64,000 nt of DNA from Acinetobacter sp. ANC 4178 (GTDB lineage Bacteria > Pseudomonadota > Gammaproteobacteria > Pseudomonadales > Moraxellaceae), in NCBI RefSeq assembly GCF_004331175.1, contig NZ_SJOD01000002.1:524675-588674 (forward strand), written 5' to 3'. Positions within the stretch are counted from its first letter, which is position 1; every line of letters starts with the position of its first letter. Of the stretch, positions 6,853 to 55,672 are shown piece after piece. The notes under the pieces were generated by a model. The model had not been told where the DNA came from and searched no databases. It worked only from the letters and a program-made list of their open reading frames with translations. The position numbers and the translations under genes were made by a program.

Positions 6853-9800
6853 TTAGTCACCATTTTTCAGTTCAATGTTGATACCTAAAGAACGGATCTC
6901 TTTGGTCAATACGTTGAACGATTCAGGCATACCTGGATCCATATAATGGTTACCATCTACAATGTTCTTATAGATACGAGTACGACCTTCAACGTCATCC
7001 GATTTCACAGTAAGCATTTCTTGTAGTGTATAAGCTGCGCCATACGCTTCAAGTGCCCAGACCTCCATCTCACCGAAACGCTGACCACCGAACTGAGCTT
7101 TACCGCCCAATGGCTGTTGCGTTACTAATGAGTAAGAACCTGTAGAACGTGCATGCATTTTGTCGTCAACCAAGTGGTTCAACTTGAGCATGTACATATA
7201 ACCTACAGTAACAGGACGGTCGAAACGTTCACCTGTACGTCCATCATACAATACGGTTTGACCCGAGCGTGGAATTTCAGCCAGCTCTAGCAACTCTTTG
7301 ATTTGGCTTTCTTCAGCACCATCAAATACAGGTGTTGCTAAAGGTACACCAGCACGTAAATTACCTGCCAATACCAAGATTTCATCATCAGTTAAGCTGT
7401 CTAAATCTTCTTGCTGACCGCCCACTTTGTTGTAGATCTTGTCAAGGAAAACACGTAGCTCTGCAATTTCACGCTGTTGTTTGAGCATCTTATCAATTTG
7501 CTCACCCAAACCTTTCGCAGCCATACCCAAGTGAGTTTCAAGAATCTGACCCACGTTCATACGTGACGGTACACCCAATGGGTTCAATACGATATCGACT
7601 GGTACACCATTGGCATCATGCGGCATGTCTTCAACTGGTAAGATGTTAGACACAACACCCTTGTTACCATGACGACCCGCCATCTTATCACCCGGCTGGA
7701 TACGACGTTTAACCGCAAGGTAAACCTTCACAACTTTCAATACGCCAGTTGTAAGTTCATCACCTGTAGAAAGTTTGCGTTTTTTCTCAGCAAATTTCTC
7801 GTCAATTTCGAAGCTTTTCTCTTTCAAGAACACTTGAATTTGGGTTAAACGTTCAGCAATCGCTTCATCGCTTGGTTGGATTTCAAGTAAATCAACCAGC
7901 TCTAAACCAGACAACATATCTTCAGACAGTTTGTCGCCACGCTTAGTACCGCCACCGCCATTCGACTCTTGATTGCTTAACAAGCGAACAATACGTTCAC
8001 GAGCTGCTTCTTCGAAGATTTTGTATTCTTCTTTCAAGTCTTTACGGTAAGCATCTAATTGCGCCTTTTCAATTGCTTGCGCACGTTCGTCTTTTTCAAG
8101 ACCGTCACGTGTAAACACTTGAACGTCAATCACTGTACCTTTGGTACCAGATGGAACACGTAAAGAAGAGTCTTTAACGTCAGCCGCTTTTTCACCAAAA
8201 ATTGCACGAAGCAGTTTTTCTTCTGGGGTTAATTGCGTTTCACCTTTAGGCGTTACTTTACCTACAAGGATGTCACCCGCAGCAACTTCAGCACCGATAT
8301 ATACGATACCTGATTCATCGAGCTTAGATAGTGCAGCTTCACCCACGTTCGGGATATCCGCAGTAATTTCTTCAGCACCCAATTTGGTATCACGTGCAAC
8401 ACACGATAATTCTTGGATATGAATCGAGGTTAAACGATCTTCTTGAAGGACACGCTCAGAAAGCAAGATCGAGTCTTCATAGTTATAACCGTTCCAGGTC
8501 ATGAACGCGACGCGCATGTTTTGACCTAGCGCAAGTTCACCACCATCAGTCGATGGACCGTCAGCCAATACATCACCACGAGCAACTTTGTCACCCATGC
8601 GAACAACAACGTTTTGGTTGATACATGTATTTTGGTTAGAACGTGTATATTTGATCAGGTTGTAGATATCTACACCCGCTTCACCCGCGATCATCTCTTC
8701 TTCGTTTACACGAATCACGATACGAGAAGCATCAACGTATTCAATCGCACCACCACGGTTTGCGATAACACACACACCAGAATCACGCGCTACGTTTGCT
8801 TCCATCCCTGTACCAACAAGCGGTTTATCCGCCAATAATGTTGGAACAGCCTGACGTTGCATGTTCGAACCCATTAATGCACGGTTCGCATCATCGTGTT
8901 CAAGGAACGGAATCAATGACGCTGCAACAGATACAACCTGCTGAGCAGATACATCCATATGCGTCACTTTTTCAGGCGGCATACGCACGAAATCACCTTG
9001 GTGACGTACAGAAACAAATTCTTCAGTCAAGTGATTGTCTGCATCAACTGCAGAGTCGGCTTGTGCAATGACGGTGCCTACTTCTTCAATCGCAGATAAG
9101 TATTCAACTTCATCCGTTACGCGACCATCAACAACTTTACGGTATGGAGTTTCCAAGAAACCGAAGTTATTACATTTTGCATAAACAGATAGCGAGTTGA
9201 TCAAACCAATGTTTGGACCTTCAGGCGTTTCAATCGGACATACACGACCATAGTGAGTTTGATGTACGTCACGTACTTCAAAGCCCGCACGTTCACGTGT
9301 CAAACCACCAGGACCAAGTGCAGATACACGACGTTTGTGTGTAATCTCAGACAATGGGTTGTTTTGATCCATGAACTGAGACAATTGGCTTGAACCAAAG
9401 AATTCTTTGATTGCTGCCGCAACTGGTTTCGCATTGATTAAATCTTGCGGAGACAAGTTGTCTGCTTCTGCTTGGCTTAAACGTTCTTTTACAGCACGTT
9501 CAACACGAACCAAACCAACACGGAATTGGTTTTCTGTCATTTCACCAACAGAACGAACACGACGGTTACCCAAGTGGTCAATATCATCCACTTCGCCTTT
9601 ACCGTTACGAATTTCAACCAATGTTTTTAATACATCAGTGATATCGCTGTTCGAAAGAATACCTTCAACTTCACGTGACTTCTGGTCAGTTCCCACTTCG
9701 TAAGGACGACCCAAACGACGGTTGAACTTCATACGACCTACTGGCGATAAATCATAACGCTCAGAAGAGAAGAACAAGTTATTGAATAGATTTTCAGCTG

Positions 9801-33698: not shown

Positions 33699-34706
33699 TT
33701 AGAACTTAAAACGAATGCCTGCACCATAGAGCCAGCCTTTTTCAGAGCCACTTTCAATTTGCCAAGGTGTTGCGTCTTTGCCTTTTGAATATTCATAAGC
33801 CATATCGATATAAGGCATGACCTTTTTGCTTATTTCATAACGGGTTTCCAAACCCGCCGTCACATTACTCAAGCCTGTTTTTTGGGCATATTTAGAATCA
33901 TCACTAAACACAAGATCTACATCTAAGTAAGGTTTGAAAATCAGTTTTTGTGTCAGCAACAAATCTCGTTCTGTTTCCAGACTAAAGCCTGAATACTGGT
34001 CTGCACCTGCATATAAATAGGCATCTGTTTCAAAGAAATACGGCGCCAAACCATGTAAACCAATTACGGCATCCAGTTTTTCTTCCGTATCTTTACGATG
34101 CTGATCTAACTCGACCTTTTCTACACGGTAACGTGTACCGATTTGTGCATCCCAAAAGTCTGAAATCATACGACTATAGAGTGTCTTTACCTCATATTCA
34201 GCCGCATGTGACTCATGCTTATCCAAATGCGCTTTAATAAAGAGTTTATTTTCATCTGTACCAATACGGGTTTCAAATTCAGATTTTAAAGTGCCTTTCC
34301 CCTCTTCATTCAACAACCACTTATTATCCACAGTCGTGACTGCATAAATCTGAGCACCATGTTCTGCACGATGATCATGTCCTGAATGCTTGTTTTCAGA
34401 TGGTTCTTCTTTCCCCTGAACTTGTTGATGGTGTGAATGATCTGTTGATTGTGACGCTTGTACTGGTTTGACAGAATCAGGAGCTGAAGTCATGCCAGAA
34501 GATGCCGTTTGCTGCATGCTGGAATGATCCATACTCGGCATATTATGCTGCATTTGAGAATGATCCATTTCAGCCTGCTGACCCTGTGATTCAGTTTGCT
34601 GCTGATGCACGGTAGGGTCTTGCTGTGCTTGTGCTAAGGTCAACTGACTCAGCAACAACAAAGAACCCGCCAGAACAGTCTGTGGAAATACATTAATGCT
34701 GCGCAT
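33699..34706 (-). CDS. copB: Copper resistance outer-membrane protein CopB
   Basis: A 335-residue precursor starting MRSINVFPQTVLAGSLLLLS, a Sec signal cleaved near LAQA. A Met/His-rich region (about residues 30-120, with MDHSQMQH and MDHSSMQ units) probably binds copper. The C-terminal 220 residues form the PcoB/CopB beta-barrel domain, ending in the aromatic GAGIRFKF, a typical outer-membrane insertion signal. The start at 34706 overlaps the previous ORF by 14 bases, with GGAGATCAAC as ribosome binding site inside that ORF. Last gene of the cop operon. Confidence 0.9.
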   Translation of the reverse strand: MRSINVFPQTVLAGSLLLLSQLTLAQAQQDPTVHQQQTESQGQQAEMDHSQMQHNMPSMDHSSMQQTASSGMTSAPDSVKPVQASQSTDHSHHQQVQGKEEPSENKHSGHDHRAEHGAQIYAVTTVDNKWLLNEEGKGTLKSEFETRIGTDENKLFIKAHLDKHESHAAEYEVKTLYSRMISDFWDAQIGTRYRVEKVELDQHRKDTEEKLDAVIGLHGLAPYFFETDAYLYAGADQYSGFSLETERDLLLTQKLIFKPYLDVDLVFSDDSKYAQKTGLSNVTAGLETRYEISKKVMPYIDMAYEYSKGKDATPWQIESGSEKGWLYGAGIRFKF

Positions 34707-34998
34707 GTTGATCTCCCTGCTGTTCAGTGTTGGCTTGTTTCTTTTTAGCATCGCGGGATTCTTTTTTTGAAGATGGTTCTTTCGAACTGACGGGCATTGC
34801 CATCTGCTGCATGTTGGAATGATCCATATTGTGCATTTCATGCTGCATTTGAGAATGATCCATCTCAGCGTGATGACCCTCTAATTCAGTCATGGACTGA
34901 TGTGCAGCATGTGCCTGTTGTTCTTGTGCGAAAGCCACTTGGCTCAATAATAATGAACTGAGGAGAACAATTTTCGGCAATAAATTAGTGATGTGCAT
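34693..34998 (-). CDS. Met/His-rich periplasmic mini-protein, duplicated CopB N-terminus
   Basis: A 101-residue precursor: signal peptide MHITNLLPKIVLLSSLLLSQ...FAQ, then a Met/His-rich stretch (HAEMDHSQMQHEMHNMDHSN), a basic linker, and a tail NTEQQGDQHAQH. The signal and Met/His region align residue by residue with the CopB N-terminus encoded next. The tail matches the CopA C-terminus encoded before (NTEQQGDQHAHH). It lacks any barrel. It overlaps copA by 14 bases at its start and copB by 14 bases at its end. A periplasmic copper-binding role is inference. Confidence 0.8.
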   Translation of the reverse strand: MHITNLLPKIVLLSSLLLSQVAFAQEQQAHAAHQSMTELEGHHAEMDHSQMQHEMHNMDHSNMQQMAMPVSSKEPSSKKESRDAKKKQANTEQQGDQHAQH

Positions 34999-37123
34999 GT
35001 TGATCTCCTTGTTGTTCTGTATTTGAGTTTTGATCTTTAGAAAGGTTAGTTTTTGATATCGGCGTTGTTGATACTTTCCCATCTGTTACATTGGCAACAA
35101 TTAATTTATTCATCATGCCTGCGCTCATGTGGTACAGCAAATGGCAATGAATCGCCCATTCGCCCAATTCATCGGCGGTTAAGAGTACCGTGACCGTTTT
35201 TGCGGGGGGCACAACAATAGTATGTTTATTTGGCATATCGACCGCTGCTTGCCCATTTTCTAATTGCATAAACATGCCATGCAAATGCATCGGGTGCGCC
35301 ATCATACTGTCATTGATAAATTTAATTCGGATACGCTCGCCATACTTCACTTTCAGTGGCTCTGCATCACTAAATTTTTTCCCGTTGATTGTCCACATAT
35401 AGCGTTCCATAGTGCCGCCTAAACGAATCACCAATTCACTGCTTGCTTCACGGGTATCTGGCTGTGGAGTTAATGATTTTAAATCACTATATTGCAAGGC
35501 CTTATCACCTGCTGGCGTAGAAGCATTTGCCCAACCGTCAACCACAGCATTATTTTGAGTCGATGTCATCTGTTGATGCTGTGAATGATCCATACCTTGC
35601 ATTTCTGCTTGGTTCATTTTCGAATGATCCATACCTTGCATTTCTGCTTGATTCATCTTCGAATGATCCATACCTTGCATCTCGGCGTGATTCATCATTG
35701 AATGGTCCATGCCTTGCATCTCGGCGTGATTCATCATTGAATGATCCATACTTTGCATTTCCGTGTGGTTCATTTTCGAATGATCCATACCTTGCATCTC
35801 AGCATGATTCATCTCCGAATGATCCATACCTTGCATTTCCGTATGATTCATCTTTGAATGGTCCATACCTTGCATTTCTGCGTGATTCATCATCGAATGA
35901 TCCATGCCCTGCATCTCTGCATGATTCATCATCGAATGATCCATACCTTGCATTTCTGCATGATTCATCATCGAATGATCCATGCTCTGCATTGCTGCAT
36001 GATTCATCTTCGAATGATCCATACTGGAAGATTGATCACCACTACCATGTCCCATATCGGCCATATTCAACAAGGCGCGCGGTCGAGCTTGTGGCATCTG
36101 TATGGCTGGCTTCACAGCAGCAAGTTCATTCTGCAAGGTCCCAATGGCAAAACCAGAACGATCTATGGATTCAGCTTCAATTTGATAATGCGCTTGTTTT
36201 GGCTCAACAATTACATCGTAAGTTTCAGCCGTTCCAATACGAAATTCATCGACATTCACAGGCTGAACGGGTTGACCATCCGCACTGACTACCGTCATTT
36301 TTAAGTTCGGAATCCGCACGTCAAAAAAGGACATGGCAGAGGCATTAATGAAGCGTAAACGGACTTTTTCATTCGGCTTAAACAGTCCAGTCCAGTTTTG
36401 TTCAGGCGTTTTACCATTGACCAAAAAGGTATAACCCGTCACATCGGACAGATCTGTTTTCAACATCCGCATCTGATTCCACATTTTACGATCAGACCAT
36501 GTGGCTTTCAGTCCATCACGTTGAGTTTGCTGCCAAACATTCCCCAAAGTCTCACGTTGGTTTTGATAATATTCAGCAGAAATTTTTAAATTTTTCTGAA
36601 TTTGATCGCTTTTTTGTTCATGAAAATCTGACAGCATGACCACATAATCACGTTCAGCTTTTTCATGTGCTGCTAAGGGCTGTTTATTTTTCGGATAAAT
36701 GACCAAAGCGCCATATAAACCATCTTGTTCCTGCCCTTTAGAATGGGCGTGATACCAATAAGTTCCATTCTGGCGAACTTTAAAACGGTAGACAAAATCT
36801 TGATTGGGTTTAATCCCTGTAAACCCGTTAAAACCAGGTACACCATCCATCAAACCAGGCAACAATAAACCATGCCAATGTAGGGAAGAATCCTGATTTT
36901 TTAAATTATTATGGACATGGATAACCGCTTCATCCCCCTCTTCAAATTCAAGTAAGGGGGCTGGAAACTTGCCATTTACGATAATACGTTTCAGCGGTTT
37001 ACCAGTAACATTAACCAAACCTTCATCGATGGTTAAATGATATTCCTTGACCGCAGCCAAAGTCCAAGAAGATGAAAATACACATAGCCCAATCAAAAGG
37101 CTGTGACGAAATAAAATAGACAT
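34985..37123 (-). CDS. copA: Periplasmic multicopper oxidase CopA
   Basis: A 712-residue copper-resistance oxidase. The signal peptide MSILFRHSLLIGLCVFSSSW lacks the twin-Arg motif usual for CopA/PcoA, so export looks Sec-like. Copper sites are complete: HWHGLLLPGLMDGVPG and YWYHAHSKGQEQDGLYG near the N-terminus, HPMHLHGMFMQL and WAIHCHLLYHMSAGMM near the C-terminus, covering type 1, 2 and 3 ligands. Residues 368-510 are eleven 13-residue Met/His repeats. It follows the His/Cys-rich gene by 49 bases and overlaps the mini-protein ORF. Confidence 0.95.
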   Translation of the reverse strand: MSILFRHSLLIGLCVFSSSWTLAAVKEYHLTIDEGLVNVTGKPLKRIIVNGKFPAPLLEFEEGDEAVIHVHNNLKNQDSSLHWHGLLLPGLMDGVPGFNGFTGIKPNQDFVYRFKVRQNGTYWYHAHSKGQEQDGLYGALVIYPKNKQPLAAHEKAERDYVVMLSDFHEQKSDQIQKNLKISAEYYQNQRETLGNVWQQTQRDGLKATWSDRKMWNQMRMLKTDLSDVTGYTFLVNGKTPEQNWTGLFKPNEKVRLRFINASAMSFFDVRIPNLKMTVVSADGQPVQPVNVDEFRIGTAETYDVIVEPKQAHYQIEAESIDRSGFAIGTLQNELAAVKPAIQMPQARPRALLNMADMGHGSGDQSSSMDHSKMNHAAMQSMDHSMMNHAEMQGMDHSMMNHAEMQGMDHSMMNHAEMQGMDHSKMNHTEMQGMDHSEMNHAEMQGMDHSKMNHTEMQSMDHSMMNHAEMQGMDHSMMNHAEMQGMDHSKMNQAEMQGMDHSKMNQAEMQGMDHSQHQQMTSTQNNAVVDGWANASTPAGDKALQYSDLKSLTPQPDTREASSELVIRLGGTMERYMWTINGKKFSDAEPLKVKYGERIRIKFINDSMMAHPMHLHGMFMQLENGQAAVDMPNKHTIVVPPAKTVTVLLTADELGEWAIHCHLLYHMSAGMMNKLIVANVTDGKVSTTPISKTNLSKDQNSNTEQQGDQHAHH
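35594..36022 (-). repeat. Eleven tandem 39-bp repeats inside copA
   Basis: Eleven in-frame units of 39 bases encode MDHSxMNHxEMQG (x mostly M or K, then A or T). A twelfth partial unit, MDHSQHQQ, ends at 35593. Units 2-4 and 8-9 are identical in protein; others differ by one or two residues. The array supplies about 40 Met and more than 20 His residues for copper binding and is prone to length change by slippage. It creates long spurious ORFs on the plus strand. Confidence 0.95.
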
Positions 37124-45268: not shown

Positions 45269-45826
45269 ATGATGAATATGGACTTCTGCGGAAATTGTGG
45301 ACATAAAACGACTGAAAAAATTCCACTGGGCGATCATCAATTACGTCGCGTTTGTACAGAATGTGGTCATATTCATTATGTAAATCCCAAAGTCATTTGT
45401 GGTGCTTTGGCACTCTGGGACAATAAAGTTTTACTTTGCCGTCGTGCGATTGAACCACGTTACGGTTTATGGACTTTACCCGCAGGTTACATGGAACTTT
45501 TTGAAACCATGGAACAAGGTGCTGCACGTGAAACTCGTGAAGAAGCACAGGCAGAAGTCGAAATTGAGCAACTGTACTGCATGTACAATATTCCACGTAT
45601 CGGGCAAATTTATGTGCTATTTAAAGCCCAACTGATCGATGGAACCTTTGGCGCAGGCGAAGAAAGTATTGAGTGCCGCCTGTTTGAAGAACATGAAATT
45701 CCGTGGACAGAATTAGCATTCCCAAGTGTAGAACAAACGCTAAAGCACTATTTTGCTGATCGGAAAACCAATGCGTTTATTACGCATTTAGAAACCTTAG
45801 GTACGCGTTTAGACCATACTGGTTAA
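45269..45826 (+). CDS. Nudix hydrolase with N-terminal zinc ribbon
   Basis: About 185 residues. A zinc ribbon (CGNCGH...CTECGHIHYVNP) precedes a full Nudix box, GYMELFETMEQGAARETREEAQAEV, with the REx2EE catalytic residues. The layout resembles the C-terminal half of NADH pyrophosphatase NudC, but the protein is shorter and lacks the NudC N-domain. ADP-ribose, NADH or mRNA caps are possible substrates; none is proven. The start is uncertain: several in-frame ATGs lie at 45269-45280 and no strong ribosome binding site is seen. Confidence 0.8.
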   Translation: MMNMDFCGNCGHKTTEKIPLGDHQLRRVCTECGHIHYVNPKVICGALALWDNKVLLCRRAIEPRYGLWTLPAGYMELFETMEQGAARETREEAQAEVEIEQLYCMYNIPRIGQIYVLFKAQLIDGTFGAGEESIECRLFEEHEIPWTELAFPSVEQTLKHYFADRKTNAFITHLETLGTRLDHTG

Positions 45827-45852
45827 ACCCGTTTAACGCATTGATAAAAATA

Positions 45853-45881
45853 AAAGCCGATTCGTTTGAATCGGCTTTTTT
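45853..45881. terminator. Bidirectional terminator between the Nudix gene and filF
   Basis: AAAAGCCGATTC, GTTT loop, GAATCGGCTTTTTT: a perfect stem with T-runs in both directions between two convergent genes. Confidence 0.9.
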
Positions 45882-45898
45882 ATTCAGAATATCGAAAT

Positions 45899-47827
45899 TT
45901 AGCTTTTGGCTTTAACGCTATAGCAAGGCGCTAAACTCATCTCTAAAGTTCCACCACTCAATTTCGCTAAAGCGGTGTCATCCGTCGTTTCATCGGTATT
46001 ATTGGCATTATAAACCTTTTGGAAACTGGCATAACTGTTCGCCCATTTAACTGCACTGCCAGCAGAATCGGTAAAGGTGATACGTCCTGTACCTCCCGTT
46101 GATGCATTTAATAAATTCTGTAAGTGAACTAAAGCCCCACCCACCACGATTTTTTCACCTGTGGCAGATATTTGAATGGTTGAGTTTACCCCAACCAAAG
46201 CACCATTAACTGACTTTAATGCCTCATCGCCTAAAATCATACGAATAGAAATAGCGCGATCATCAATAAAGGCACGAGATGTTGTGCCTAAGCGATATTG
46301 CTGTACACCATTACTGTCTTTCAGATTACTACCTACTGTTGTATTACAGCTTCCTGTACTCATATCAGTATCGGTCGCAGCAGGCTTCATATTGGTTCGT
46401 ATATCGCCTTTCTCATCAATCACAATACCCAATTTTAGACTTGGCACACTGCTATCAGTGAATTTGAACGTTAAATCTGCATATAATGGGAAAATGTAAT
46501 TTTCACCTGCTGAGACATTATTACTCGATTTAAATACTTGTTTGTCTAAATAGGTAATTGGATAAACTTTAAAAAGATCTAAGGAACCTTTAAACGTATC
46601 TGAGATACCATAACGCTGTTGCCATTGTCCGAGGTCTTTCAAGTCCTCAGCAGTGACCGTGGTTTTTTGTGTCAGTAATTTATAGAATTTTTCCTTACCC
46701 GCAATCATATAATCGTTATACAACTTCCCTTGATTGATAATCAGATCTTCAGAATTCACGTCATCTACGCCAATATAATAATTTTGATCGATGCGTTTAT
46801 TCAGCGGGTTAATCCAATGGTTTTGTGGCAATGCCGTCATACGGGTCGGTTTATAGCTGCGGAGTAATTCTGCATTTACTCCAGCAATCGAGGTCAGGCC
46901 TGATTTTGCCAAACCTCTCCATTGCAAACCACTGCCAAATGTATAGCCTTGGCGATCCGTCAACAACATAAAATGTCCAAACAAATGTTTGGTGGTCGTG
47001 TCATTTGCAGCACAAACGTCTTTATTACAGCCCGTTAAGCCATCCGACCCCGTTAAGCTACTCACCACACTGCCAGTAGTCGAGAATAAAGAAAACTCAG
47101 GCTGATACACCGCGGCATTGCTAATATTCAATAATTGACTGACCACCGCAAAAGCGTCTGCATCTGAAATGACAGAGACATCTAACCACGGTTTAATGAT
47201 GGCGGCGTACTCTCCATTCACCATCTGTTGCGCGGTTACAGAACTGGTAATTTTATCTAAACTTTCACGGATCGAATCATTCATATACAGCGCTTGAATA
47301 TCCGTTTTCGTGTTTATACTTTTTTGCTGTAGAGCCAATGCCTGAATAATTTTAACCAAGTTCATGGCAGTTTTGACTGTAGCATCACTTGAATCAAGTA
47401 CGGTCGCATCACGGTTAGTCATCCCTCTGGCAATATCTAATACCGTCAAACGCGGAATTTGATCGGTACTGACCAAGGCAATATTACTGATTGGGAAAGA
47501 CCCTAAAGCAATCCGTTTATCGGCTTTACCCAATAAGAATACATTGACTTTATCACTATAATTACAAGTGCCTGTGGCAACACCATTCTTCAAATCCATT
47601 AAAGTCACAAAGGTATTTTGTGTATCACTGCTACAGGAAAAATTTAAACCATCAAAAGGATAATCCAGTGCAAACTGAATGCAGTTGGTTGTGCCCGCAG
47701 TACAACTCCCATTTACCGTGCTGTTATTATTTTTCTCTGGAATAATATTGGCACTTTCCCCACCACAAGCAGTGAGTCCTGACATTAACGTTGAAAGTGC
47801 GATGGTTAATAAATATTTATTTTTCAT
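45899..47827 (-). CDS. filF: FilF lipoprotein
   Basis: A 642-residue lipoprotein: the signal MKNKYLLTIALSTLMSGLTACGGES has lipobox LTAC with lipidation Cys21. The mature part is large, Thr/Asn/Ser-rich and without transmembrane helices. It has a few Cys (CTAGTTNC, NFSCSSD, GTCNY) in the first 100 residues and a final Cys near the C-terminus. It is the last gene of the fil cluster, 22 bases after filE. Databases call such proteins putative pilus assembly FilF, but I see no pilus-related domain. The function is unknown. Confidence 0.75.
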   Translation of the reverse strand: MKNKYLLTIALSTLMSGLTACGGESANIIPEKNNNSTVNGSCTAGTTNCIQFALDYPFDGLNFSCSSDTQNTFVTLMDLKNGVATGTCNYSDKVNVFLLGKADKRIALGSFPISNIALVSTDQIPRLTVLDIARGMTNRDATVLDSSDATVKTAMNLVKIIQALALQQKSINTKTDIQALYMNDSIRESLDKITSSVTAQQMVNGEYAAIIKPWLDVSVISDADAFAVVSQLLNISNAAVYQPEFSLFSTTGSVVSSLTGSDGLTGCNKDVCAANDTTTKHLFGHFMLLTDRQGYTFGSGLQWRGLAKSGLTSIAGVNAELLRSYKPTRMTALPQNHWINPLNKRIDQNYYIGVDDVNSEDLIINQGKLYNDYMIAGKEKFYKLLTQKTTVTAEDLKDLGQWQQRYGISDTFKGSLDLFKVYPITYLDKQVFKSSNNVSAGENYIFPLYADLTFKFTDSSVPSLKLGIVIDEKGDIRTNMKPAATDTDMSTGSCNTTVGSNLKDSNGVQQYRLGTTSRAFIDDRAISIRMILGDEALKSVNGALVGVNSTIQISATGEKIVVGGALVHLQNLLNASTGGTGRITFTDSAGSAVKWANSYASFQKVYNANNTDETTDDTALAKLSGGTLEMSLAPCYSVKAKS

Positions 47828-47849
47828 TCCTATTACTCTATTTTTCTAA

Positions 47850-49247
47850 CTAACGAACCGCGGTCAGTTTGATTTGTCCTTGATTGCTTAACGCTTGCTC
47901 TTCAACATCCACTGCTGAAAGTAAAGGGGTCATAAAAATATATCGGGTTTGCGTAGGCAGCTGTAACATGCCGTCAATCACAGCATGGCGGTATTTATTT
48001 TCGGCACGATCCTGATTTTTAAAACCCGTCACGCCTTCAATCACACAGCCTGAGTCATCTAAAAAAGCCACAAAAGGCCAGTAATAACTTGGTTGATTTT
48101 GACTCGAGGCATAAGAACTGAGTTGCACATTTTTAATGCCCGTCTGTACTTCCACGACTTCATAATCAAAATGATTTTTTAACGGTTGGCGAGGCCATAA
48201 ATTGACGTCTTGCTGAGCTTTGAGTAATTTTGCTTTTTGTATTTTTTTATCGCGATAACAGCTTTGACCCAAGCTTTGTACCACTTGATCTTTTGCAATG
48301 GGATAATACTGAGTCGATAAAGCAATCACTGAGTTTTCAACTGGATTATTCTTCTTAAATAATCGGTCGAGTACGCCTTGATTCACCCCTTTTTCACGTT
48401 CAACCACTTGCAAACGAGGTGGACCTAACTCTTTATCCATCACACCTTCAGGCATGACATAAAAGCGTTTTTTATTTTCTAAATTAAATTCTTTCCCTTC
48501 TAAATATTCATTTTTCACATAACGATCACCATTAATTTCCAGAAATCCTTCTTGTGTAGATTGCGTGGAAACCGAACTGGTTTCATGTTTGCTTTTTAAT
48601 TGTGTGGCTTTTTCAATGGCCACATTGGTTTCAATTTTATGAAGTGCTCGCTCAACCTGTGCAGAAGTTGCCTTCTGAGTTATAGATGGTTGAGCGAGTT
48701 CCAAGGGCGGCTTTTGAAATGTAGTAATTTGCTGACTGAGCTGCTCATTCACTTGTTTTGGAATTTCGGCAGATTTTGCTATGACAGCAACTTTCGACTC
48801 AACAGACGTGAGTTTTTTTTCATTATTTGCCGGTGGAATAGATTTACTTTGATCAACTATTTCAGGCTGTACCACGACAGGATTTTTTTGCACTTCAGTA
48901 AGTTGGGGTTTAGTTTTCACTTGAGATTCAACTTTTTCAGCGACACCAGTCGGTGGTACCACAACTTGTGCTTTTGGCATCGGTTGAACCACCTGAACAG
49001 ACGGTACATCCTTTACTTTCGTTTTTTCTTGTTCTATTTTTGGCTTTGATGGAAGCGCAACCTGAGATTGAGCTTCCACTTTTTGGGTTTCAGCAGGCAC
49101 ACGAGGAATCACCATGGGACGACCATCTGGCCCAATGATGGTATAAAACTCACCCGCATTTGCAGACAGTGCCATCATCCCACATAAAACCCAAGTCGAT
49201 GATGACACCCACGTAAACCGCTTAGCTTTATTGTTTTTTCTTACCAT
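47850..49247 (-). CDS. filE: FilE, exported protein with long disordered linker
   Basis: A 465-residue precursor. The hydrophobic segment about residues 13-31 (WVSSSTWVLCGMMALSANA) is a signal peptide. The mature start GEFYTIIGPDGRPMVIPRVP resembles DUF4124-like N-termini. Residues about 50-230 are low-complexity, rich in Lys, Val, Pro and Gln, able to span the periplasm. The C-terminal 200 residues look folded. Its ATG overlaps the filD stop by seven bases (ATGGTAA). A bridging role between inner and outer membrane is speculation. Confidence 0.75.
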   Translation of the reverse strand: MVRKNNKAKRFTWVSSSTWVLCGMMALSANAGEFYTIIGPDGRPMVIPRVPAETQKVEAQSQVALPSKPKIEQEKTKVKDVPSVQVVQPMPKAQVVVPPTGVAEKVESQVKTKPQLTEVQKNPVVVQPEIVDQSKSIPPANNEKKLTSVESKVAVIAKSAEIPKQVNEQLSQQITTFQKPPLELAQPSITQKATSAQVERALHKIETNVAIEKATQLKSKHETSSVSTQSTQEGFLEINGDRYVKNEYLEGKEFNLENKKRFYVMPEGVMDKELGPPRLQVVEREKGVNQGVLDRLFKKNNPVENSVIALSTQYYPIAKDQVVQSLGQSCYRDKKIQKAKLLKAQQDVNLWPRQPLKNHFDYEVVEVQTGIKNVQLSSYASSQNQPSYYWPFVAFLDDSGCVIEGVTGFKNQDRAENKYRHAVIDGMLQLPTQTRYIFMTPLLSAVDVEEQALSNQGQIKLTAVR

Positions 49248-50905
49248 TTTGTACGATAACTCAAGCCTAAAATAGTGATATTGGTTTCGGTTTTTACGTT
49301 TAAGCCCGCATATGGGTTAAATACAATATTATTCACCCCAGTTTGGTTCAATAAAGTACTGGTATTGGCAGGAATACTGTCTTTACTGCGTAAATAACCA
49401 ATGGATAAATCTAAGTCGGTATCGGCATCGAAGCGATAACCCACACCCAAACCAAATAATTGCGCATTATTAATAGGCACCATGGTATTTCGTTTGTCAT
49501 CAGGGATGGCGCTGGTTCTTGGCTCATATCCAGCTCGTAACTTCAAACGATCAGTTGCAGAATATTCAATCCCGATGCCATAGTTCCAAGGGGAGTCAAA
49601 CTTCAAAGGCAATGACAAACTGTTGTCAGTAATATCTGGTGAAAGGAGTTTGGCAATTTTTAATGCCGAGATAGAGCGGTCAAACTCAAATTTGAACTTG
49701 TCCCATGCACGATAATCTGTCCAGCCCACATCTACATTCACTTGTAAATCGGGCAGAAGCATATATTTGATCCCGGCCTGAATATGCTGTGGATACTCAA
49801 AATCCATCGACACCAGACCTGATTCGGTCGCAGGAATACTTTGTGGAAAACCTAAAATTGCCGCAAGAATCTGCCCTGTCGGTGAAGACATCAAACCATT
49901 GATCAACTCACGTGGCGCTTTTGAGTTATCAATCGTGTATTTGCCCTTCAAACGCATTTTTGAAGCACTTTGATACACCATACCAAAGCTAAATTCGTCG
50001 GTGGGTTCCCACATGACCCCAAGGTTAAAACTCGGACTCAATGATTGCTCCATCGCCACTTCCATCCGACCAAAACGACCAAATGGATTCATTCCTTCTT
50101 GAGCATTACAAATCCCGAGCAATAAAATATCGGTAATCACATCCGAGTTGTCTTTAAATGGGGTACAGACCACCTCATCAATCATGCGTAACATCCCAAT
50201 CATTTCATTCGGGAAACGCAAATCTGTTTTTAAGGCAAAAGCTTGATAAGACATGCCCACCGAGGCGCCAATCGAAAGTTCATCATTGACTTCATAGGCG
50301 ATAGACGGCGACAAATAGGTAAAGCGCTCCAATGCCACCTGTTGTCCCATAAAATTACTTGGATTGCCGTTTTCCGCACCAAATCCAGCCACTAAGGGTG
50401 CATAAAATGCTGTGGCAAAAGTAGTTTTAGAACCGGGTGGTTTATATGCTGCGCCCGCCGTTGGTGCAAGCATAGGCATCCCCTCACCTAAATCGACGAC
50501 TTTCTTTAAAAATGGCACATACAGACTAATATATTCTACATCGCCATTTACAGGGCCTTTGTAATCTGTACAAATGTCTGAAGCCACTTCAGGACCATCA
50601 TTACACACCAAAGGGTCATCTGAATAACCAAAAACGTTATAGCCTTCAGGTGCTGAATACTGACGTTTGATATTAAAGTTTGCCAGAATCCCTTGTACAT
50701 CTGTTTGCAAACCCTCAATTTTCGTCAATGCGGCAGGGTTATAATGAACCGCACTTACCCCTGGAGGATCGGCTGTGACCGCATTCCCCATTGCAAGTGA
50801 TCGAATATCTACTGACAAATTTTGCCCGAGTTGAGCAAAAGCCATACTTGAACAGCCCGATAAAATTATCGCTGAAACTAACGGGCTAAGTCGTACCTTG
50901 TACAT
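49241..50905 (-). CDS. filD: FilD, FadL/OmpP1-like outer-membrane barrel
   Basis: A 554-residue precursor with a signal peptide (LVSAIILSGCSSMAFAQ). The mature N-terminus SVDIRSLAMGNAVTADPPGVSAVHYNPAALTKI has the AMG...A...NPA pattern of FadL/OmpP1 hydrophobic-substrate channels. Many amphipathic beta strands follow, ending in TNITILGLSYRTKW with a C-terminal aromatic residue. FadL family proteins carry hydrophobic molecules across the outer membrane. AGAGGG precedes the start; 12 bases separate it from filC. Confidence 0.8.
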   Translation of the reverse strand: MYKVRLSPLVSAIILSGCSSMAFAQLGQNLSVDIRSLAMGNAVTADPPGVSAVHYNPAALTKIEGLQTDVQGILANFNIKRQYSAPEGYNVFGYSDDPLVCNDGPEVASDICTDYKGPVNGDVEYISLYVPFLKKVVDLGEGMPMLAPTAGAAYKPPGSKTTFATAFYAPLVAGFGAENGNPSNFMGQQVALERFTYLSPSIAYEVNDELSIGASVGMSYQAFALKTDLRFPNEMIGMLRMIDEVVCTPFKDNSDVITDILLLGICNAQEGMNPFGRFGRMEVAMEQSLSPSFNLGVMWEPTDEFSFGMVYQSASKMRLKGKYTIDNSKAPRELINGLMSSPTGQILAAILGFPQSIPATESGLVSMDFEYPQHIQAGIKYMLLPDLQVNVDVGWTDYRAWDKFKFEFDRSISALKIAKLLSPDITDNSLSLPLKFDSPWNYGIGIEYSATDRLKLRAGYEPRTSAIPDDKRNTMVPINNAQLFGLGVGYRFDADTDLDLSIGYLRSKDSIPANTSTLLNQTGVNNIVFNPYAGLNVKTETNITILGLSYRTKW

Positions 50906-50917
50906 GCGACTGCCCTC

Positions 50918-52015
50918 TTAGCTGATTTTTTTACCGAAACCTGCAATATCTAATGGGAAAGACAAACCTAAAGATACATCAGGTGCATCTTCGGTTAAGC
51001 CAATGCCTAAGGTGCCATTCACAATAGTTTCTGGTGAAACACGTACACCTAATGAAATAGCAAAGGTTGAACTGGTTTGATCGGCTGGTGAGTAACTTTC
51101 ACCTGAGGTATATGTAAATTCTGCCCCCGTATTGAAACTTTGCTGGTATGACATGGTCATAGACACATCATAGTTAAATGAGTAAGCAAAACCGAATGAA
51201 AAACCTCCGCTAATGCCTGGGTCAAATTCTTCAATGACTCGTGGACCACGGCGCTGATCTAAACCCGACTCTTTGAAACCATAGTTGGCCGATACTGAAG
51301 CAAAAAGTACCACAGGATCAATATACTTACGTGTGCTCGCACCGACACCTGCTGAATAATAACCTTTACCAGTAGCCAAGTCGGTAGTTGGATTAATTTC
51401 ATAAGGGCTATCGCCTGTTTTGGTCGAGATGTTTCCAAATAAAATTAAAGGTAAACGTCCCGTTTTAAGCGGGAACGGTTCCCAACGTGTACCTAAAGAA
51501 ATATCGCCCAAACCTGCGGTAGAGGTGTCTTTTAAATTGTCTGTTTTAGCAACTAGAGGTAATGAAGCCGTGAAGGTTAAATTATCGAGTACCCCATACT
51601 GTACGGTAAAAGTATTGGTCAAAGTATGGCTGGCATTTTCCTGCACGCGTAATTGATACAGGCTACCTTGTGCCATTTCTAGATCTAATTGGGTATCGCG
51701 ATAGTAGGTATAATCCACATCGTAAAATGCAGAAATATCGCCTTTTTTAATTAAAGAATATTGACGCTCGTTTGAGGTAAAAACTTCTTCAAGATTGGTT
51801 TGTTTAGTCGCATCACCCTCTTGTTGCTGTAATGCATTAGAAGCATCATGCGGTGGTGTTGTGGCATTGGTTTCTACACTTGATGCAACTGCTGTTTCTT
51901 GAGCTCCAACGGTTGTTCCCTGTGTTTCAGCTGTCGTATCGGCTGCATAAGCAGTCCCCATCAAAATTTGAATACTCAGCACCAATAAAGTTTTATTCAT
52001 CCATTGATTTTTCAT
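50918..52015 (-). CDS. filC: FilC, FapF-like outer-membrane beta-barrel
   Basis: A 365-residue precursor. The start at 52015 (MKNQWMNKTLLVLSIQILMG...AYA) gives a good signal peptide; GGACGGAA lies upstream. After a low-complexity N-terminal stretch (about 25-75) come NLEEVFTSNERQYSLIKKGD, a barrel with FTVQYGVLDNLTFTASLPLVA and RWEPFPLKTG, and an end at SLPLDIAGFGKKIS-type strands. This layout, a linker or coiled region before a barrel, and several blocks resemble FapF, the export pore of the Pseudomonas Fap amyloid system. The similarity is from memory, not alignment. Confidence 0.75.
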   Translation of the reverse strand: MKNQWMNKTLLVLSIQILMGTAYAADTTAETQGTTVGAQETAVASSVETNATTPPHDASNALQQQEGDATKQTNLEEVFTSNERQYSLIKKGDISAFYDVDYTYYRDTQLDLEMAQGSLYQLRVQENASHTLTNTFTVQYGVLDNLTFTASLPLVAKTDNLKDTSTAGLGDISLGTRWEPFPLKTGRLPLILFGNISTKTGDSPYEINPTTDLATGKGYYSAGVGASTRKYIDPVVLFASVSANYGFKESGLDQRRGPRVIEEFDPGISGGFSFGFAYSFNYDVSMTMSYQQSFNTGAEFTYTSGESYSPADQTSSTFAISLGVRVSPETIVNGTLGIGLTEDAPDVSLGLSFPLDIAGFGKKIS

Positions 52016-52058
52016 TTCCGTCCACTCTATTCTTTTTTTATTTGCTTTAAACCGCGTG

Positions 52059-52919
52059 CTATTTGCTCTTGTAATATAGGCGTAAATGTCGATCGACATA
52101 TTGGCCGTTCATCTCCGATTCTGGGTTATTATTGACAATTCTTGAGATCGTCGCTCCCCGATCTGCCAGTTTTTCCATATAAAACTGTGGATATTGAATA
52201 TCAACCAATGCATAACGGTTCACTGTTGCATCCTCAACATGACGCATATCACTATCCTGTAATGCCAATAAATTTTTACGTTGTTCTGGTGGAACACTAA
52301 TTAGAAATAGGGTGTTATTTTCCCAAATTTCTTTAAAGCGTTCTTCATCAAAACTAATGTTTCCCAAAGCTGGATCAGCGACGTAAACACGCCTATCCTT
52401 ATAGGCCTTAAACACCACAAAGTGTTTAAACCCCGCATAAGAGATTGGAACAATGGCAGGCTGACCTTGTGCAACTAAATCTGAGAATTCACCTTTATAG
52501 CCTCCACTCTCTAAACCGAGTGCAGCGACAAAACGCTTCATATCCAGTAATGAAAAGCTACGACGCTCAATAATCCGTTCTGACTCACCGAACTTGAGTA
52601 AGCCAGTCATGGTTTGTTGTTCCGTCAACTGCGTTCCCACATAACCATTGAGTAAAGTCGTTAATGCAGCGGAACCACAGCTATAGTCATAGGCTTGACG
52701 TACAATGCCACGAAATTGATCGATCAATGCAGGTTTAATTTGAACGGTTTCACGGTGCATGCGGGTAAAGGAATCTTGCCGTGAATCGAGTGTTTCAGTG
52801 TAATAGACTGCTTCAGGAGGTTTTTCTTTTATTTCAAAGGCTTGCGTGGCAAAATAGTACATCAATGCCGAGCCCAATGCGATCTCTAACATATTCCCTA
52901 ACTTTCTGATGTTCGGCAT
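52059..52919 (-). CDS. filB: FilB, membrane-anchored C39-like cysteine peptidase
   Basis: A 286-residue protein with an N-terminal hydrophobic anchor (about residues 10-28). A C39-type papain-fold domain follows: Gln75 and Cys81 in RQAYDYSCGSAALTTLLNG, His166 in YAGFKHFVVFKAY and Asp182 in YVADPALG. No ABC-transporter domain is attached, as in FapD. The peptidase would act in the periplasm, possibly on FilA. It follows filA after a strong terminator and is 43 bases before filC. Confidence 0.85.
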   Translation of the reverse strand: MPNIRKLGNMLEIALGSALMYYFATQAFEIKEKPPEAVYYTETLDSRQDSFTRMHRETVQIKPALIDQFRGIVRQAYDYSCGSAALTTLLNGYVGTQLTEQQTMTGLLKFGESERIIERRSFSLLDMKRFVAALGLESGGYKGEFSDLVAQGQPAIVPISYAGFKHFVVFKAYKDRRVYVADPALGNISFDEERFKEIWENNTLFLISVPPEQRKNLLALQDSDMRHVEDATVNRYALVDIQYPQFYMEKLADRGATISRIVNNNPESEMNGQYVDRHLRLYYKSK

Positions 52920-53048
52920 GACGTGCCTGAAATTTATTATTTTTCTAGAGTAAAAACTCTATACTTCCTTGTATTTTGACAACATACCTGTTTTTTTAAA
53001 AAAGAAACAGCCTTTTCTTACATTTTTAGATGAACTGAATGGTTTTTT

Positions 53049-53080
53049 GTAAAAAAAAGCGCGTGAATTCACGCGCTTTT
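53049..53080 (-). terminator. Strong terminator between filA and filB
   Basis: A perfect palindrome AAAAGCGCGTGAATTCACGCGCTTTT followed on the minus strand by a run of eight T, 13 bases after the filA stop. The rest of the 52920-53092 spacer shows no other obvious structure. Confidence 0.9.
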
Positions 53081-53092
53081 CCTAGGAAATGA

Positions 53093-54076
53093 TTAGTGAC
53101 CAGAAATCGTGATGACTGCACCTGGAGTGTAAACACCTAAAGATGGGCTGAAATAGGTTTGTAAACCTTGTACTTCTACATCACCAATTGATGAAGCAGC
53201 TTGACTACCTAAATGCACACCTTTCACATAGTTATCTACTGCACCGCTAGAGCTGATAATACGTAAATAGCCTTTGTTCGCACCTTCTGTACCAATCACA
53301 CTGATTGATTGATTCAAGGTTAAATCTTTAGCATTTGCATCCGCTACTTTAATGCTATCTACGAAGATTTGACCTGCTGCACGGTTACCTGTAGTACCAT
53401 CCCCAGTGCCTTGTTTAGTTGAGTTATCCAAAATACCAAGGTTGGTAATTTCTAGACCACCGATCATCTGTGCATTCAACTTAACCATAGCCCCTTGTGG
53501 TGCTGCACCCAGTTGAATATTGGCAGACATAGGACCTGTTTTTAAAGATAGACCTGATAAAATTGCATTGTAGTTGGTATCATCTCCACCACGACGAATA
53601 CTGGTTGAAGCTGCTGTTGGAAGCGCGCCTGAACCTGTTACCCCAATTTCCCCAATTTTAATATCCAAACCAGAAACTTGCGCACCGATGTTCAGGAACG
53701 CACCACCTGTTCCTGAAGTACCTGCATCAGTATCAATGGTTAAATCTGCAAGGTTACGTGAAGCAAGTAAGTATGCACCCGCATTATCATAGTTTGCACC
53801 AATCACAATACCTTTGGTTGCAGTCGCACCGGTACCATTGCCCTTAATTACAATGGCACCCGCAGTTGAAGTACCGCCCAATCCAGCTGTTGCAAGACCG
53901 TCATTGTCGTGAATGAATAATTTCTCAATCTCGACTTTAGAAATGCCAATACCGATATTTAAACCATCTTGACCCGTTGTCGCGCTTAATGAAGCATCGT
54001 CCATTGCTTGCATAGCCATCGCATTCGCGCTAATAGCCATTGAAGAAACTAAAACAAGTTTAGTTAATTTTTTCAT
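53093..54076 (-). CDS. filA: FilA, secreted Gly/Ala-rich protein
   Basis: A 327-residue precursor. The ATG at 54076 is chosen because GGGAGAG lies upstream and MKKLTKLVLVSSMAISANAMA is a clean Sec signal. The mature N-terminus MDDASLSATTGQDGLNIGIGISKVEI has the LSxxTGQDG motif of DUF6160-type exported proteins. The rest is Gly-, Ala-, Thr- and Ser-rich with regular short beta segments (GAIVIKGNGTG and similar), suggesting a beta-solenoid or repeat fibre. There is no Cys and no pilin prepeptide. Divergent from pabB. Confidence 0.8.
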   Translation of the reverse strand: MKKLTKLVLVSSMAISANAMAMQAMDDASLSATTGQDGLNIGIGISKVEIEKLFIHDNDGLATAGLGGTSTAGAIVIKGNGTGATATKGIVIGANYDNAGAYLLASRNLADLTIDTDAGTSGTGGAFLNIGAQVSGLDIKIGEIGVTGSGALPTAASTSIRRGGDDTNYNAILSGLSLKTGPMSANIQLGAAPQGAMVKLNAQMIGGLEITNLGILDNSTKQGTGDGTTGNRAAGQIFVDSIKVADANAKDLTLNQSISVIGTEGANKGYLRIISSSGAVDNYVKGVHLGSQAASSIGDVEVQGLQTYFSPSLGVYTPGAVITISGH

Positions 54077-54334
54077 GTTCCACTCTCCCAAGAGTATTCT
54101 TTTTCTTTAAATGTCAACCACTCGATGCATCTGTTGTTTTATTTGTTTTTCGACAACAGTACATAGTTCCTTGAGTGATCCGTTGGCACCCATAACGTTA
54201 TAGGTCTGTTATTTTTTGTTCAACTGCTGTTGGTCGTAATGTGAATCTTGCCGACAAACGGTATTTACTGTGTTGTTTCCTTCACATTCGAGTAAAATAT
54301 AGAATATAGTTTTAATGCCAGCTTTATTAAGCAT

Positions 54335-55672
54335 ATGACCAGCCCTTCTCTTTTCCAAAATGTGATTTGTGATCAACCTGTTAATGTTCAAGAAATTCTT
54401 TCATGTCTCGATGATCTTCCACATTTAATTTATTTAAAAAACAATCAAAGCCCGGTCATTGCTTTTCTTCCATGTCAATTTGAATGTGTAAAAAATGGCG
54501 TCCGTCAAACTTACCAAAGAACACAGCTTGACCAATATATCCCCATTGAATCCAGTTTAAGGTTTAAACAGTCTGAAAATCTTCAATCCAATACTGATGG
54601 ATTTCAGGGCGGCTTAATGGGCTTCATCAGTTATGATTTTGCCAGTGCACAACATGTGAAAGTTCACTCAAAAGATCAACCTAGTTTTTGGCTTGGTTTA
54701 TTTCAAACTTATTTAAAATTTCAGGATGATGCTTGGTATTTTTATAGTGATGAGCCAGAAGCTGAACAAATTTTCGCATTCATTCAGAACAAATTAGAAG
54801 CTACATCCAAAGTCACTCCATTACAGCTCACTCAAACCTGTCACGCACGTTGGAATAAGCAACAATATCAAGCGGCTTTTGCACAAGTTCAAGAATATAT
54901 TAAGGCAGGTGATTGTTATCAAATTAACCTGACCCAAGAATTTAAGGGACAAGCTGAAGGGCGTTTACTTTCCGTGGCACAAGCGTTCTGGCAACTGACT
55001 GATGCACCGTATTCTGGGTATTTAAAAACAGAAGAGTTTGAATTACTGAGCTGCTCGCCTGAACTTTTTATCGAATTTCTAGCAGGAAAAAAACTGGTCA
55101 CTAAACCCATTAAGGGTACTATGCCACGTTATGCAGATGCAGAGCGCGATGCACAATCTAAACACCAATTACAACACTCTTCTAAAGATCAGGCTGAAAA
55201 TGTCATGATCGTAGATTTGTTACGTAATGATTTAAGTGTTTATGCGGAAACAGGAACGGTTAAAACACCAAAATTATTTGAAATTGAATCATTTAATCAA
55301 GTTCATCACATGGTCAGTGAAGTCACAGCAACCCTGAAACCTGCTGTCAAAGCTTTAGATGTATTGTTGGCGGCTCTACCTGGTGGCTCAATTACAGGTG
55401 CGCCCAAAATTCGTGCCATGCAAATTATAGAAGAATTAGAAGGTGCGCCACGCGGTGCATATTGTGGATCATTAGGTTATTTTAATTTTGATGGTACAGG
55501 TTCATGGAATATTTTGATTCGCTCCATTCAGAAATATCAACAACATATTTCTCTTTGGGCAGGCGGCGGAATCACCATTGCGTCTGACTGCGATGCGGAA
55601 TACCAAGAATGTTTTGATAAAGTTTCTGCCATGCTGGACTTACTCAACACATGGCAGAAGCCACAATCTTAA
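54335..55672 (+). CDS. pabB: Aminodeoxychorismate synthase component I
   Basis: A 445-residue chorismate-utilising enzyme that with PabA makes 4-amino-4-deoxychorismate for folate. [35 protein letters not shown] and [22 protein letters not shown] are the catalytic motifs. The Lys in PIKGT, where TrpE-type enzymes have Ala, marks PabB over anthranilate synthase. It is divergent from filA; its 3' end overlaps the convergent hisC by four bases. Confidence 0.92.

Follow-up and report, generated by a model that had tools for sequence, protein, structure and literature searches.

The fil cluster of Acinetobacter sp. ANC 4178 occupies positions 45899-54091 of the 64,000-nucleotide stretch of DNA analysed here (the window). 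It comprises six genes on the minus strand, filA to filF, each covered almost end to end by one of the NCBIfam models FilA to FilF. These matches confirm the six genes on one strand recognised in a preliminary description, in which the cluster was likened to the Fap system of Pseudomonas, with FilA as the exported fibre, FilB as its processing protease and FilC as its pore. The first gene, filA (53093-54076), encodes a secreted, leader-bearing protein of 327 residues, which matches the NCBIfam FilA model (E=1.8e-90) as well as DUF6160 (PF19657, E=3e-9) and whose closest named relative among the matches listed is found in Acinetobacter tandoii (84%). Directly 3′ of filA, between filA and filB, lies a perfect palindromic stem-loop with a T8 tail (53051-53076, minus strand), while a terminator-like hairpin of 12 pairs (45845-45879, minus strand) is located 3′ of filF, at the end of the unit. 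An Rfam scan of positions 45600-54500 gave no match. Together, the two structures suggest that filA is an abundant transcript with read-through into filB-F, and the stem-loop is likely a partial terminator that would keep filA in excess of the five other genes. The stem-loop (53076-53051), the leader of FilA and four further leader proteins in the genome go beyond the preliminary description.

The N-terminus of FilA reads MKKLTKLVLVSSMAISANAMA, followed by MQAMDDASLSATTGQ and then DGLNIG, i.e., a Sec (general secretion) signal, 15 residues and the remainder of the protein. The signal (residues 1-21, 54014-54076, ending in NAMA) was read from the sequence, in agreement with a simple Sec rule. 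The leader (residues 22-36, 53969-54013) is predicted, from the reading of the sequence and from a scoring matrix, to be recognised and removed by a C39 peptidase, and the end of the leader would set the start of the predicted mature chain (residues 37-327, 53096-53968). Hydrophobic residues are found at −15, −12 and −7 of the leader, Thr at −4, Gly at −2 and Gln at −1, and both M20 and A21 (end of the signal) and G35 and Q36 (end of the leader) are invariant across 33 FilA rows. In peptidase-containing ATP-binding cassette (ABC) transporters, the leaders recognised by C39 domains are anchored at −4, −7, −12 and −15 (PMC7018657; this and the papers cited below are drawn on in excerpt). With a matrix trained on 28 other leaders, FilA being left out, the FilA leader scores 23.0, the next-best value being 9.3 among the 50 Sec-like open reading frames (ORFs) of the window, and no leader was found in the other five Fil proteins. 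The presence of this C39-type leader supports and sharpens the earlier proposal that FilA is a substrate of FilB, insofar as it can be judged from sequence.

The leader is not restricted to FilA. A DUF6160 search of the same genome returned five places (weakest E=0.04). Besides FilA, these are four genes at about 790-795 kb of contig 1, encoding Sec proteins with a leader of the FilA kind, e.g., LQSLSDQELSDVSGQ; one of the four ends in GE. In genome G138, which has a single FilB, 15 leader proteins of 97-168 residues are dispersed on ten contigs. Their mean pairwise identity is 0.48 over the 15 residues before GQ and 0.08 over positions +2 to +41, position +1 is Gly or Ala in 14 of the 15, and related mature parts were found in 7 of 105 protein pairs. 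This collapse of identity after GQ indicates that the shared part is mainly a tag. FilB probably serves several substrates and not FilA alone. Leaders were collected with a pattern that left −15, −12 and −4 free, which all 15 Pfam-found proteins of G138 fit; it missed the DUF6160 match of locus L087 (LRETTGE) and the SVAQ form in L054. Of 29 collected leaders, one in L083 (87 residues) was discarded as spurious on inspection by eye; the matrix was built with FilA in addition. Among the 28 GQ leaders, from five genomes, core hydrophobics (LIVMF) are found at −15 (96%), −12 (100%), −7 (100%, the pattern having fixed [LM] there) and −4 (86%), and in only 0-7% at the positions in between; Gly is at −2 and −1 is Gln in 26 and Glu in two, G[QE] having been fixed at −2/−1.

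FilA and the dispersed proteins are all matched by DUF6160, and ten of the 15 matches in G138 stop by profile position 49 of 96, which corresponds to signal plus leader. In the strongest members (G501, G537), the match spans almost all 96 positions, suggesting that what is shared exceeds the tag in part of the family. Most DUF6160 matches would gain a proposed role, that of an address tag usable to list the clients of the route. No leader family other than DUF6160 and the FilA model was found in NCBIfam or Pfam with 20 protein queries. The second locus of the ANC 4178 genome (L053, 5484-11134, i.e., about 789.5-795.1 kb of contig 1) contains adjacent leader proteins of 465, 205, 745 and 447 residues, flanked by likely prolyl-tRNA synthetase and likely dCTP deaminase genes, both named by eye. 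Leader clusters of this sort also occur in two other genomes, with four genes in G537 (L214) and at least two in G623 (L223).

The gene following the stem-loop, filB (52059-52919, minus strand), encodes a C39 peptidase of 286 residues, which is probably membrane-anchored on the periplasmic side, with a hydrophobic N-terminus read by eye as the anchor. Cys81, His166, Asp182 and Gln75 are present and the match to Pfam Peptidase_C39 is clear (E=3.5e-16). The Pfam scan gave C39 matches only and hence no ABC domain, as already described. The earlier comparison of FilB with FapD is borne out by the NCBIfam FapD model, which matches over 151 residues (E=2e-29) with 102.5 bits for a curated cut-off of 330. 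Downstream, filC (50918-52012, minus strand) probably starts at 52012 and not at 52099, given the 364 residues of the entry that is listed for the window itself. It encodes a low-complexity N-terminal region followed by an outer-membrane barrel, as previously noted. FilC matches the NCBIfam FapF model (E=2.7e-17, 62.7 bits for a cut-off of 700) and, in the C-terminal half of the barrel, the crystallised FapF in PDB (E=4e-10; a profile built from 32 FilC proteins gives 2.6e-11). In a Foldseek search with the FilC model, whose mean predicted local distance difference test (pLDDT) is 56, ranks 1-18 were all FapF chains and the COG4313 outer-membrane channels came next (4rl8); the latter are uptake channels, which according to PMC6173800 have no reported C39 partner. 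With the same low-confidence model, VIA-align placed FapF only at ranks 11, 14 and 15, behind CymA and OmpG. The likeness of FilC to FapF proposed earlier is thus upheld by sequence and by the Foldseek ranking; because VIA-align does not separate FapF from other barrels, the claim is rested on sequence. Since both scores lie under the NCBI cut-offs, FilB and FilC are to be regarded, at the level of sequence, as relatives of FapD and FapF and not as Fap orthologues by NCBI's rule.

In 113 of 121 loci, a barrel of the FilC/FapF branch is encoded no more than 5 kb from the C39 peptidase, comprising 10 of 10 FilB-type loci, 30 of 32 FapD-type loci of the class sample and 73 of 79 named FapD loci, and fapD and fapF have been reported side by side in five further phyla (PMC6173800). 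A leader gene adjoins FilB in six of the ten FilB-type loci. In a peptidase tree of 67 of 120 labelled loci, from which L036 and L039 were dropped with no CG motif found, the FilB-type rows form one branch (support 100/99). A comparison of the −1 residue with this tree was not used, the FilB rows having been labelled Q by type beforehand and the automatic leader picks in FapE loci having often chosen another ORF, and only the grouping was kept. In this comparison, 12 of 120 loci gave no pick at a score of at least 3. In two relatives of FilC (L055, 3253-4719; L056, 10358-11860), the place of the low-complexity region is taken by an OmpA-C-like N-terminal part, recognised by eye, through which the pore would be tied to peptidoglycan.

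FilB-type peptidases and DUF6160 are gained and lost together. Among the 229 genomes of the class sample, DUF6160 was found in five, which are the five with the closest FilB homologues among 28. Within the genus (41 genomes), 30 genomes have both and 11 have neither. In the family (149 genomes, including the 41 of the genus), 58 have both, one has only the FilB-type peptidase, four have only DUF6160 and 86 have neither; the corresponding numbers in the phylum (398 genomes) are nine, zero, two and 387. DUF6160 is absent from the 31 genomes of the phylum sample whose FilB matches are all lower-scoring. Fisher p-values range from 3e-10 to 3e-35, with genomes treated as independent though related and with samples that overlap, the class, family and phylum samples sharing some genomes. 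In each of the 30 genomes of the genus, one listed DUF6160 place is a frame of 745-893 residues that lies either on a different contig from filB or no less than 68 kb away; unlinked leader genes thus also come and go with filB. Among the exceptions, G280 has a FilB-type peptidase without DUF6160. Of the two phylum genomes with DUF6160 only, G549 is a false match with no leader, whereas the leader of G477 is real and lies at the end of a contig; the further genomes with DUF6160 without FilB (G264, G265, G268 and G299) are assemblies of 220-450 contigs. In eleven genomes of the family (g205, g201, g203), the only such peptidase is a weak FapD-like one (E 1e-9 to 1e-13), and DUF6160 is not matched. 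A FilB-type and a FapD-type peptidase occur together in G426 and G509, two genomes of the same order, which would provide a natural test of whether the two leader types stay apart.

Leaders of a similar kind are also found near FapD-type peptidases. The matrix derived from 29 GQ leaders was run, as a held-out test, on 32 FapD-type loci from 24 genomes of the class sample, i.e., on 158 Sec-like ORFs located within 3.5 kb of the peptidase and on its strand. The 933 controls were the far ORFs of the tested loci and those of 40 stretches of four genomes, and one of the genomes used for training, G010, is also the source of a FapD-type locus in the test (L038). At a score of at least 10, 16 of the 158 ORFs were retained vs one of the 933 controls (p=3e-13), of which the best reached 11.2. 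At a score of at least 8, there were 18 vs five controls, and 60 column-shuffled matrices gave at most 8. Among 79 named FapD loci, 78 have a FapE-like protein downstream, and the leader ends in RG[RK] in 78 of 78; this pattern was written after the motif had been seen, so that the count is descriptive and the matrix run is the independent test. The 78 FapE-like proteins rest on phmmer searches from L058, L070 and L071, the three of five candidates for which NCBIfam backs the name FapE, all under the cut-off of 250, while L066 and L067 gave no match. The 65 distinct FapE leaders have a hydrophobic residue at −12 (97%), −7 (98%) and −4 (86%), with Asp at −10 in 54 and Glu at −8 in 47. In Pseudomonas, where an example is LKDQELASLRGR followed by YVMPG, the leader mostly ends at residues 39-50, counted from the first possible start. 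According to PMC5557850, Cys38 of FapD is needed for secretion, its target is unclear with FapE as the favoured candidate, and only FapE showed complete N-terminal processing, peptides being absent for about 70 residues. The same source describes Fap proteins as being without canonical C39 sequences. In L037, a FapD-type peptidase has next to it a tandem of four small Sec proteins (7199-8986), each with a leader ending in [IV]TAG. In addition, G046 has seven FapD-like peptidases (contigs C17, C111, C125, C183 and C213), and in several of its loci (L048-L052) the leaders end in G plus a variable residue.

Fil is best read as a sister of Fap, and it is considered probable that its FapD-related C39 peptidase and FapF-related barrel export FilA and other leader proteins, with FilB cutting the leader in the periplasm. 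FilA and the four proteins of the second locus carry a Sec signal, by which they would reach the periplasm. The leader of about 15 residues kept after the signal would then bind FilB through its hydrophobics at −15, −12, −7 and −4, and FilB would cut at the conserved Gly-Gln, the precursor remaining periplasmic, held or unfolded, until cut. The freed chain would pass through FilC to the surface, as suggested by the relationship of FilC to FapF, and FilD, FilE and FilF may help or anchor it. With a stand-alone peptidase in the periplasm, the tag has to outlast Sec processing and be removed only afterwards, which would prevent clients from folding or leaving before they encounter FilB. For FapD in the Fap system, the corresponding client would most likely be FapE, cleaved after its leader ending in Arg-Gly-Arg/Lys. 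The balance also tips, mildly, towards a wider route comprising Sec, a stand-alone C39 peptidase removing a double-glycine-type leader and a FapF-family pore, of which Fap and Fil would be two branches. The leader, which makes up the N-terminal half of DUF6160 in Fil, would then be a genome-wide sorting tag, comparable to sortase and exosortase signals, and, on FapE, the recognition sequence that has been missing for FapD. This proposal provides, for FapE and FilA together, a recognition sequence with its register, a cut site at the level of the residue and a genome-wide test.

Fil and Fap (FapA-F) both pair a periplasmic C39 peptidase with an adjoining barrel of the FapF family, both have a C39-type leader on a Sec-exported protein (FilA and FapE, respectively), and both lack an ABC or pilus motor. 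Unlike Fap, Fil has no N/Q-repeat subunit among its six proteins and no evident coiled coil in FilC, but has FilD-F in addition, a leader ending in GQ instead of RG[RK] and further leader proteins elsewhere in the genome. The NCBIfam FapE model (NF058559) has no match in the six Fil proteins, FilA sharing the leader type only. With peptidase-containing ABC transporters, Fil shares the C39 active-site residues and, in the leader, Gly at −2 and the anchor positions −4, −7, −12 and −15; it differs by its stand-alone periplasmic peptidase, its Sec substrates of about 97-750 residues and Gln at −1.

Several points weigh against cleavage by FilB and export through FilC. C39 enzymes cut after GG, GA or GS, and Gln, Arg or Lys at P1 is unusual, whereas FilA has GQ and the pattern used to collect the other FilB-type leaders required G[QE]. 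Thr at −4 of FilA departs from the hydrophobic anchor, and a DUF6160 protein of G007 (L054, 11442-12356) has the leader LANSVAQ, in which Ala replaces Gly and which may be an uncut variant or a tolerated change. Four of the ten FilB-type loci have no leader gene beside FilB, and a nearby leader at a score of at least 6 was found in only 17 of the 32 FapD-type loci. FapE leaders have no clear hydrophobic at −15 (28%), and their end at residues 39-50 matches the 70 or so unseen residues of FapE loosely, in kind and not in position (PMC5557850), a report that also names the FapF linker as a possible site of FapD. The FapF coiled coil with its Gln layers is evident by eye in FapF of L058 and L070 and not in FilC or the seven relatives inspected, the corresponding region of the FilC model having a pLDDT of only 24-34. 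The Fisher p-values ignore kinship among genomes, and the E-value limits for "FilB-type" were chosen after the gap was visible. The leader could also be a docking signal for FilC containing no cleavage site, cleavage and export of FilA being predictions from sequence.

A related explanation is that the leader stays uncut and serves as a docking tag bringing Sec-exported clients to FilB and FilC, with FilB acting as a chaperone. This is in line with a −1 residue that varies by locus (Q, R/K, G/A and others) and with the existence of non-catalytic chaperones among C39-like domains (PMC5557850). It is nevertheless held to be improbable: Cys, His, Asp and Gln are all kept in FilB, FapD needs its Cys (PMC5557850) and conservation falls sharply past GQ. 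Strict homology to Fap, in which FilA would take the role of the fibre subunit FapC, with FilB cutting, FilC exporting and fibres forming, would fit the homology of FilB and FilC to FapD and FapF and the probable expression of filA above the other fil genes, given the stem-loop 3′ of filA, as well as the over-expression of FilF in the pellicle of A. baumannii (PMC3203104, PMC7273844). However, the predicted mature part of FilA has no confident fold (AlphaFold2 mean pLDDT 40, with 33 close homologues as input) and no internal repeat detectable as a BLAST self-match. FapC-type repeat cores, AG-x(2-4)-[NQ][QN], number zero in FilA vs one to four in seven of eight neighbours of FapD, and N+Q amounts to 9.6% vs 14-21% in seven of the eight neighbours upstream of FapD, the eighth (7.4%) probably being a wrong frame. 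In Fap, moreover, the clear leader sits on FapE and not on the main fibre FapC. Strict homology is hence judged unlikely, and a role of FilA as amyloid fibre, as in the preliminary comparison with Fap, is not supported so far, FilA having neither Fap-type N/Q repeats nor a confident fold.

The fil genes have also been described as putative type III pili, produced at high levels in pellicles (PMC4256060, PMC5376624, PMC7273844), and database and review labels would make the cluster a true pilus, type III or filamentous. In PMC3203104, FilF is tied to the filamentous type III pili of Burkholderia cepacia, a likeness on which the pilus name appears to be based. In agreement with the preliminary description, Pfam and NCBIfam scans of the six Fil proteins found no prepilin, chaperone, usher or assembly ATPase, and the peptidase and pore belong to the Fap branch. 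With no pilus part among the six proteins, this reading is disfavoured and appears very improbable. A Fap-related export route would replace a weakly based pilus label for a cluster over-expressed in Acinetobacter pellicles. A literature search found no paper naming FilA, FilB and FilC together with Acinetobacter, and DUF6160 in a single paper, on CRISPR according to its title. No link of FapD or FilB to such a leader was found in the titles and abstract openings listed or in the consulted parts of PMC5557850, PMC6173800 and PMC6173795, most subscription papers lying outside this search.

The three remaining genes are also on the minus strand. The product of filD (49241-50905), which accompanies FilB and FilC, is a barrel of the FadL/OmpP1 family (Toluene_X, E=3.3e-63), as expected from its earlier description as FadL-like. 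That of filE (47850-49247) has a signal, a long linker and a FilE_C domain at residues 303-465 (PF22881, E=1.6e-68, a curated C-terminal domain). The last gene, filF (45899-47827), encodes a large predicted lipoprotein (NCBIfam FilF, E=5.4e-261) with a lipobox-like LTAC read by eye, in accordance with the preliminary description; the use of FilF as a vaccine antigen has been tested (PMC4751259). The earlier view of FilD-F as lineage-specific does not hold for FilD, which follows FilC in eight of the ten FilB-type loci of other genera. With FilE and FilF as queries, phmmer found no match in these ten loci, although L054 has lipoprotein-like genes of 324 and 617 residues at their places. In L213 (3123-4148) and L222 (13155-14306), the gene after FilD encodes a MalM domain, to which FilE_C may be related. 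Elsewhere in the window, at 33699-37123, Sec-like ORFs with Met-rich repeats of the MDHSSM type are probably copper-resistance genes, as judged by eye.

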